Below are positions 42,937 through 44,304 of a stretch of DNA of 64,000 nucleotides, in pieces (the stretch's first letter is position 1; each line of letters starts with the position of its first letter). Origin of the DNA: Reyranella sp. (GTDB lineage: Bacteria > Pseudomonadota > Alphaproteobacteria > Reyranellales > Reyranellaceae). The notes below the pieces were generated by a model that did not search any database, was not told the DNA's origin, and saw only the letters and a list, made by a program, of their open reading frames with translations. The stretch spans positions 61,824 to 125,823 of the forward strand of contig NZ_JAUSBN010000052.1 in assembly GCF_030651995.1 (NCBI RefSeq). The letters run 5' to 3'. The translations under genes and the position numbers were made by a program.

Positions 42937-43354
42937 CCTCATCCTGAGGAGGCCGCGCAGCGGCCGTCTCGAAGGATGGGCAACAGGACAGAACGCCTGA
43001 ATGTCCGAGGAGTCCGGCGCCGGCGTCTACATGGTGAGATGTGCCGATGACAGCTACTATGTCGGGTCAGCACGCCTAGGTCTGGAACGTCGCCTTTCTG
43101 AACACAACAATGGTATCTGTGGCGTTTACACCGCAAAGCGTTTGCCGGTGACGCCCGTCTGGTCCGAGCATTTCCAGAAGATCACTGATGCCATTGCGGT
43201 CGAGCGCCAAGTGAAAGGCTGGCCCCGCGCCAAGAAGGAGGCGCTCATCCGGGGTGACTTCGGCTCGATCCAGATGCTGGCCAAGAGGCGCACCTAAATC
43301 ACGCCTGTTGCCCATCCTTCGAGACGGCCGCTGCGCGGCCTCCTCAGGATGAGG
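42937..43354. mobile_element. putative REP-bounded cassette: 51-bp perfect inverted repeats enclosing a GIY-YIG gene
   Basis: 42937-42987 CCTCATCCTGAGGAGGCCGCGCAGCGGCCGTCTCGAAGGATGGGCAACAGG is the exact inverse of 43304-43354. Confidence 0.75.
43001..43297 (+). CDS. GIY-YIG nuclease family protein
   Basis: 'GVYMVRCADDSYYVGSARLGLERRLSEHNNG...AIAVERQVKGWPRAKKEALIRGDF'. Confidence 0.9.
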   Translation: MSEESGAGVYMVRCADDSYYVGSARLGLERRLSEHNNGICGVYTAKRLPVTPVWSEHFQKITDAIAVERQVKGWPRAKKEALIRGDFGSIQMLAKRRT

Positions 43355-43393: not shown

Positions 43394-43424
43394 CAAAAAA
43401 AGGGCCGGCGAGGCCGGCCCTTTT
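43394..43424 (-). terminator. rho-independent terminator for the RidA gene
   Basis: Minus-strand AAAAGGGCCGGCctcGCCGGCCCTTTTTTTTG. Confidence 0.85.
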
Positions 43425-43442: not shown

Positions 43443-43790
43443 CTACTTGGCGGCCTGGATCATGATCTCGACCTTGAGGCCGGGAGCGGCGAGCTTGGCT
43501 TCGACGGTCGCGCGGGCCGGGGTGTTGCCGGGGGAGACCCAGGCGTCCCACACCTCGTTCATCTGGCTCCAGGTCGAAATGTCGGTCAGCCAGATGTTGG
43601 CCGAGAGGACCTTCGACTTGTCGGTGCCGGCCTCGGCCAGGAACTTGTCGACCTTGTCGAGGATCTGCTTGGTCTGGCCCTTGACGTCGGCCTTGGCGTC
43701 GTCGGCGGTGAGGCCGGCGAGATAGACGGTGTCGCCATGGACCACGGCGCTGCTCATGCGGGCGCCGGCGTTGATGCGCTTGATGCTCAT
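43443..43790 (-). CDS. RidA family protein
   Basis: 'VVHGDTVYLAGLTADDAKADVKGQTKQILDKVDKFLAEAGTDKSKVLSANIWLTDI'. Confidence 0.93.
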   Translation of the reverse strand: MSIKRINAGARMSSAVVHGDTVYLAGLTADDAKADVKGQTKQILDKVDKFLAEAGTDKSKVLSANIWLTDISTWSQMNEVWDAWVSPGNTPARATVEAKLAAPGLKVEIMIQAAK

Positions 43791-43840
43791 ATTCTCTCTC
43801 CTCGAAGAAACTTCAAAAGCGGGCGGGACCTTAGCAGAGG

Positions 43841-44191
43841 CTAGATCGCCGCGACGACCATGATTTCGACCTTCATGTCCGGGTCGTTCAGCCGCGCCTC
43901 GACGGTGGCCCGGGCGGGCGCGTGGCCGGGCGCGACCCAGGCGTCCCAAACTTCATTCATGGCGGCAAAATCGGAGATATCGCTCAGCCAGATCGTGGCC
44001 GTCAGGATCTTCGACTTGTCGCTGCCGCCCCTGGCCAGCAGGGAGTCGATCTCGGCCAGCGCCTGCCGGACCTGGCCGGTGATGTCGAGGCTCGTATCCT
44101 CGGGGATCATGCCCGAGCAATGGATGCGGTTGCCCAGGATGACGGCCTCGCTCATGCGCGGGCCGACGTCGATTCGCGTGATGGTGCTCAT
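43841..44191 (-). CDS. RidA family protein (tandem paralogue)
   Basis: 'VILGNRIHCSGMIPEDTSLDITGQVRQALAEIDSLLARGGSDKSKILTATIWLSDI'. Confidence 0.93.
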   Translation of the reverse strand: MSTITRIDVGPRMSEAVILGNRIHCSGMIPEDTSLDITGQVRQALAEIDSLLARGGSDKSKILTATIWLSDISDFAAMNEVWDAWVAPGHAPARATVEARLNDPDMKVEIMVVAAI

Positions 44192-44304
44192 GGCGGCGAC
44201 CCTAAAGCGCCTTTTCCGCTCGCACAACGGACCGGGCCTGCACTCGGCCCTGCCCGCGCCGCCGGTTCGCGTTACAGTCCGGTACGCCTATCGGAGAAAA
44301 CGCC

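Follow-up and report, generated by a model that had tools for sequence, protein, structure and literature searches.

A small GIY-YIG nuclease gene between inverted REP hairpins in Reyranella as a candidate REP-nuclease element

A gene for a 98-residue GIY-YIG nuclease in Reyranella, together with the two inverted copies of a multicopy hairpin repeat that enclose it, probably constitutes a minimal REP-nuclease element, in which a REP-cognate GIY-YIG nuclease propagates its repeat along with its own gene, much as in the RAYT/REP systems, with an unrelated enzyme doing the work. We observed the association of gene and repeat and the orientation of the two, cognate specificity between nuclease and repeat types, covariation within the hairpin, a dimer layout, sites both vacant and occupied, and a copy with an internal deletion. 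By their sequence the repeats belong to the CGTC-tagged REP superfamily, and this nuclease is the best candidate for the missing enzyme partner of those REPs.

The unit in the window and its repeat

The unit spans 418 bp of the window, by which we mean the whole 64,000-nucleotide stretch of DNA that was analysed, and consists of a REP, the nuclease gene and an inverted REP:

42937..43354, no strand assigned: the whole unit, with the layout of a REPIN whose 24-nt spacer is swapped for a gene
42937..42987, plus strand: left REP-A arm, with tag CCTC, outer stem ATCCT/AGGAT, a compensating inner stem, a loop and the gene-facing internal tail GGGCAACAGG; assigned from its perfect inverted match to the right arm and from its hairpin fold, covariation among 29 genomic copies and about 200 copies in the genome
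43001..43297, plus strand: 98-aa GIY-YIG nuclease of type A, a single UPF0213-like domain; assigned from a PF01541 match, active-site residues, an AlphaFold2 model and PDB matches
43304..43354, minus strand: right REP-A arm, inverted, with the gene-facing internal tail CCTGTTGCCC

The initial annotation had described a GIY-YIG gene enclosed by a perfect 51-bp inverted repeat, and this proved exact to the base. The two arms are 100% reverse complementary across 51 nt (arm-pair BLAST E = 1.7e-24, searched within 300-nt flanks), the ATG lies 13 nt past the left arm, and the right arm begins 6 nt past the stop codon, both spacings being as claimed. The arms had also been called REP-like on account of a GGCCGCGCAGCGGCC dyad; the dyad is found in each of them, and as a single strand each arm forms a hairpin that folds better than nearly all shuffled versions (z about -3). 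The ends of the arms show no target-site duplication, again as the annotation had it. The unit is intergenic, with a predicted FAD-linked oxidase gene upstream and two genes that appear to be RidA-like, in the opposite orientation, downstream. The members of the RidA-like pair (43443-44227, minus strand) are adjacent and about 54% identical to each other. A terminator-like hairpin, AAAAGGGCCGGC-GAG-GCCGGCCCTTTT, stands before ridA at 43398-43424, and several relatives have similar sequence at this position; the element itself sits between the oxidase stop codon and this hairpin.

With no more than one mismatch allowed, the host genome (5.5 Mb in 92 contigs) contains 212 occurrences of the arm core CATCCTTCGAGACG, compared with a single occurrence of the reversed control pattern, which rules out a chance repeat. 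Each window arm is one REP hairpin, and its family numbers about 200 copies in the genome, mostly arranged as head-to-head pairs 24 nt apart in the manner of REPINs. As seen in 400 kb of host sequence and in the fetched loci, the REP-A unit is about 44 nt long and reads CCTCAYCCTGAGGAG-stem-loop-stem-CGTCTCGAAGGRTG. Head-to-head (+-) pairs make up 31 of the 39 close REP pairs, counted in overlapping loci where the ++ and -- pairs are partly the same places, and the gap is exactly 24 nt in 26 of the 31. In the window, and likewise in a paralogue of 74% identity on contig 17, the gene occupies the place of this 24-nt REPIN spacer, and the internal tail GGGCAACAGG of the window arms is also found at one end of many solo dimers. 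Among 29 distinct REP sequences, 98.8% of cells in the hairpin are paired, and compensatory double changes number 67 compared with 19.4 ± 3.3 in shuffles, slid registers all scoring far lower. At seven loci of the same genome, many REPINs lie beside or inside a larger composite repeat built of outer inverted repeats, CCTCATCCTGAGAGGCTGACCGGAAATGAA...TTTCATTTCCGGTCAGCCTCTCAGGATGAGG, plus a AATTGAATCGATTCAAGCACTTA segment.

The CGTC-tagged REPs were described in 2013 as a superfamily with the tag CGTC, TGTC or CCTC whose members "apparently lack a dedicated transposase" (PMC3733652). The superfamily includes dRS3 of Neisseria and RPE-4 and RPE-6 of Rickettsia, and its traits are AT as the first stem bases, a variable compensating stem, head-to-head dimers and a strong presence in Alphaproteobacteria (PMC3733652). 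The window arms match it on each of these points: they start with CCTC, the stem of the family begins with AT (AC is seen as well, with compensating changes), the close pairs are predominantly head-to-head dimers, and the host is an alphaproteobacterium. The difference is that the 2013 paper reports no enzyme, whereas here the dimer encloses the gene of a cognate nuclease, and such repeats stand beside the gene in more phyla. Both the membership in this superfamily and the spread of the pairing over many phyla lie beyond what the initial annotation had in view.

The nuclease, its cognate repeats and their sites

The identification of the gene product as a GIY-YIG nuclease is borne out by a PF01541 match with E = 1.2e-13 (51.6 bits; cut-off 22.6), and the protein has both the fold and the Y, Y, G, R, H and E active-site residues of the superfamily. 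The catalytic residues, whose absence the initial annotation had named as an argument against its idea, are present as Y10, Y20, G22, R31, H35 and E68 (window numbering), each invariant or more than 90% conserved across 87 homologues. An AlphaFold2 model (pLDDT 84) has matches among UPF0213 structures and a weaker one in Slx1, and the PDB matches of the protein are 1zg2, 1ywl and Slx1. UPF0213/YhbQ-like proteins (1zg2, 1ywl) are the closest solved structures by sequence and fold; these are structures of uncharacterised proteins, which, unlike the window gene, showed no repeat association in the search results. Because the protein is a bare nuclease domain, we infer that recognition of the hairpin must come from that domain itself, plausibly with a hairpin or cruciform as its object. 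An intron, intein or phage origin is unsupported, the PHROG and NCBIfam matches being weak and partial.

Close homologues (58-80%) are distributed patchily over 75 genomes of the same family, some genomes having them and others not, and most are flanked on both sides by inverted REP arms about 5-50 bp away. The Reyranella genome also carries a second nuclease, type B (L003, about 31% identical), which is flanked by REP-B, GTCATCCCGAGCGNAGCGAGGGA. Whether GIY-YIG genes in relatives are repeatedly flanked by the repeat had been set as a check on the original idea, and they are: within the genus, REP-A lies near 24 of 27 type A loci, as a rule on both sides and no more than about 50 bp away, and REP-B near none of the 27, whereas REP-B lies near 17 of 22 type B loci and REP-A near only one (Fisher p = 7e-11 for the pairing of type and repeat). 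Across 65 genus genomes, the median number of REP-A copies is 78 with nuclease A and 19 without it (p = 2e-5), and that of REP-B copies is 52 with nuclease B and 11 without it (p = 1e-6); the crossed tests of each REP against the non-cognate nuclease in these genomes are flat (p = 0.27 and 0.88). Under phylogenetic contrasts over the 30 placeable genomes, the B result holds (r = 0.55, p = 0.0008) and the A result is weak (r = 0.23, p = 0.11), so the copy-number result for nuclease A is to be read with care. Some genomes hold many REPs with no cognate nuclease detected, for example one with 127 copies of REP-A. The 29 nuclease copies are spread over 20 context groups, even with weak paralogous links included.

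Several individual copies have features of their own. The type B open reading frames (L003, 1429-1743, and those at other type B loci) run into the 3′ REP, which encodes the C-terminus ...KGPSLRSG. The paralogue on contig 17 (L002, 1501-1788) is a decaying copy with an in-frame TAG, and truncated nuclease copies are found at one locus shared by three genomes.

The pairing of nuclease and REP is general, more so than the initial annotation had supposed. A scan with one genome per species returned at least 571 relatives, the best 80 of which were examined for a generic hairpin facing the gene (TCATabc...c'b'a'AT[CG]), with 302 shifted positions in the same loci as the control. Among these best 80 of at least 571, an inward-facing REP hairpin was found on both sides at 24 loci (0 of 302 controls), on the left at 42 (8 of 302) and on the right at 28 (9 of 302), and an inverted-repeat test free of any motif was positive at 38 of the 80, compared with 1 of 148 controls. 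A CGTC or TGTC tag, which the search pattern did not require, is present on 76 of the 78 flanking hairpins in this set (C or T and then G before TCAT). The repeat is also multicopy, a restricted hairpin pattern recurring in 17 of 20 two-sided genomes from the best 80, mostly in several to 200 copies, with a control of 0. The 24 two-sided cases in the same set come from about eight phyla (Alphaproteobacteria, Coriobacteriaceae, Bacteroidota groups, Fibrobacter, Verrucomicrobia/Kiritimatiellae/PVC, Acidobacteria, Chloroflexi and Peregrinibacteria), although single taxon labels may be wrong because many of these genomes are metagenome bins. Some of the 80 homologues, three loci among them, have no recognisable REP arms. 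In Neisseria a GIY-YIG gene lies among dRS3 copies, a proximity that counts little because dRS3 copies are so dense and so mixed in orientation.

Empty sites, which the initial annotation had proposed to look for, were found in the FAD-oxidase neighbourhoods, at REPIN loci and on Sphingobium plasmids, and orthologous sites are both occupied and vacant, as for a transposable element. In 29 orthologous FAD-oxidase neighbourhoods, the gene and REP-A are absent from that place in every other genome, and in several the FAD-oxidase and RidA genes are adjacent. At other loci, some species carry REPINs at orthologous positions where others have none. On Sphingobium plasmids, fnrL and a response regulator gene flank an element with CGTCACCCCGGGCTTGACCCGGGGTCCC arms; two related plasmids without the nuclease gene carry exactly one palindrome there, made of the two outer REP halves joined, and two other empty plasmids have neither gene nor REP at that site. 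The single palindrome may represent the target, the scar of a deletion or a product of excision. Sinorhizobium meliloti has a full element beside a copy with the same REPs that is cut to 25 nt of the 5′ end and 133 nt of the 3′ end, the intermediate to be expected between an autonomous element and a short REP dimer. At the divergences of the window, REPIN and Sphingobium sites, neither a target-site duplication nor an exact junction is resolvable. In relatives, the space after the FAD-oxidase stop codon contains palindromic repeats of other kinds, REP-B dimers in three of the neighbourhoods and GGAGCGCGCCACTCCAGTGGCGC-type palindromes in four, so it may be a common landing place.

A proposed mechanism and its competitors

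For binding, cleavage, movement, choice of target and the order of steps, we propose the following. The REP hairpin, in DNA that is single-stranded or extruded, would most likely be recognised by the nuclease and nicked or cut. As the cut REP-bounded DNA is repaired or re-inserted, the REP dimer would be copied to new intergenic sites, and so, more rarely, would a dimer with the nuclease gene inside it. The solo REPs and REPINs, roughly 200 in number, would be non-autonomous derivatives maintained in trans by the nuclease, much as RAYTs are thought to maintain GTAG REPs. The analogy with RAYTs and REPs, which the initial annotation had drawn, holds in the REPIN-like dimers, the compensatory hairpins, the cognate nuclease and repeat types, and the vacant sites. 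With RAYT (TnpA-REP)/GTAG REPs, REPINs and REPtrons, the Reyranella unit shares a small gene between inverted REPs, non-autonomous dimers and specificity between enzyme and repeat; unlike them, it has a PF01541 GIY-YIG nuclease instead of an HUH tyrosine transposase (Y1_Tnp), and its flanking repeats carry the CGTC-type tag instead of GTAG. As a RAYT partner, the host genome offers a single partial Y1 transposase, which lies elsewhere without flanking REP-A. Pairs of MITEs and parent insertion sequences resemble the system in that the dimers share ends with the gene-bearing element and an internally deleted copy is seen, but here the ends are hairpins, no target-site duplication was seen, and there is no DDE or HUH transposase.

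Free-standing GIY-YIG homing endonucleases copy their own gene into a cut site through double-strand-break repair, and a similar process might make the REPs targets and not cargo. The nuclease would cut solo REP palindromes, double-strand-break repair would copy the gene into the cut REP because the broken ends are homologous to the gene-flanking REPs, and the REPs would multiply by other means. We consider this unlikely. The catalytic fold, the active-site residues and the suspected selfish spread are those of I-TevI-like homing endonucleases, the gene always lies between inverted REPs, and the two Sphingobium plasmids whose gene-less site is exactly one palindrome of outer REP halves are compatible with copying into a cut site. 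However, that fused palindrome could also be a deletion scar, and the two other empty plasmids have no REP at the site. REP dimers with the fixed 24-nt spacer exist without the gene, and REP copy number tracks the cognate nuclease, which together suggest that the REPs profit too. The system also departs from homing endonucleases in being a bare domain of about 95 aa with no intron, intein or DNA-binding extension, in being associated with a multicopy hairpin and not with one conserved gene target, and in its location, which is not in an intron or intein or beside a cognate gene target but intergenic, between the FAD-oxidase and RidA genes in the window and in about 20 unrelated contexts among relatives.

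It is quite improbable that the protein is a structure-specific enzyme which has been domesticated to trim or resolve REP hairpins or to act on REP-containing RNA, and which stays near REPs for regulation and mobilises nothing. A resemblance of the fold to the branched-DNA nuclease Slx1 and the existence of some homologues without REP arms (among the best 80 of at least 571) would fit such a role, but the patchy presence, the roughly 20 contexts for 29 copies, and the decayed and internally deleted copies argue for a selfish element over a conserved host gene. Least credible to us is that intergenic REP insertions merely trap small genes while RAYTs or other transposases move the REPs. REPs are indeed abundant and intergenic, and nearby copies mean little in REP-dense genomes such as those of Neisseria; yet chance does not sit well with inward placement on both sides at 24 of the best 80 of at least 571 relatives and none of 302 controls, or with a flanking REP specific to the nuclease type. 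RAYTs and other transposase genes, moreover, are not flanked by CGTC REPs (PMC3733652), nor is the single partial Y1 transposase of the host.

Implications for the CGTC-tagged REPs

Beyond the reading of the Reyranella unit as a REP-nuclease element, the chances seem evenly balanced that the whole CGTC-REP superfamily, across bacteria, has its dedicated mobilisers in stand-alone GIY-YIG nucleases of about 95 residues, each element consisting of a lone GIY-YIG protein and its cognate hairpin ends, with most CGTC REPs, the dRS3 type included, as non-autonomous offspring. The class could be new in kind, and we rate it so because no known mobile element with a lone GIY-YIG nuclease and cognate palindromic ends was found; a stricter view would hold that the REP/RAYT layout is the same and that only the enzyme and the repeat class differ. 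In the open-access PMC literature, no paper linking GIY-YIG proteins to REPs was found, and the raw repeat sequences led to unrelated papers only.

Short repeats of the CGTC-REP kind are widespread in bacteria, and the question of whether an enzyme spreads them, and which one, was left open by the defining paper (PMC3733652). With a tiny cognate nuclease in hand, that question becomes directly testable in vitro. If the proposal is confirmed, one more nuclease fold would join the drivers of prokaryotic mobile elements, and many small GIY-YIG genes annotated by their domain only or as 'excinuclease ABC subunit C' would be explained. Confirmation would also provide many natural pairs of nuclease and hairpin with distinct specificities.
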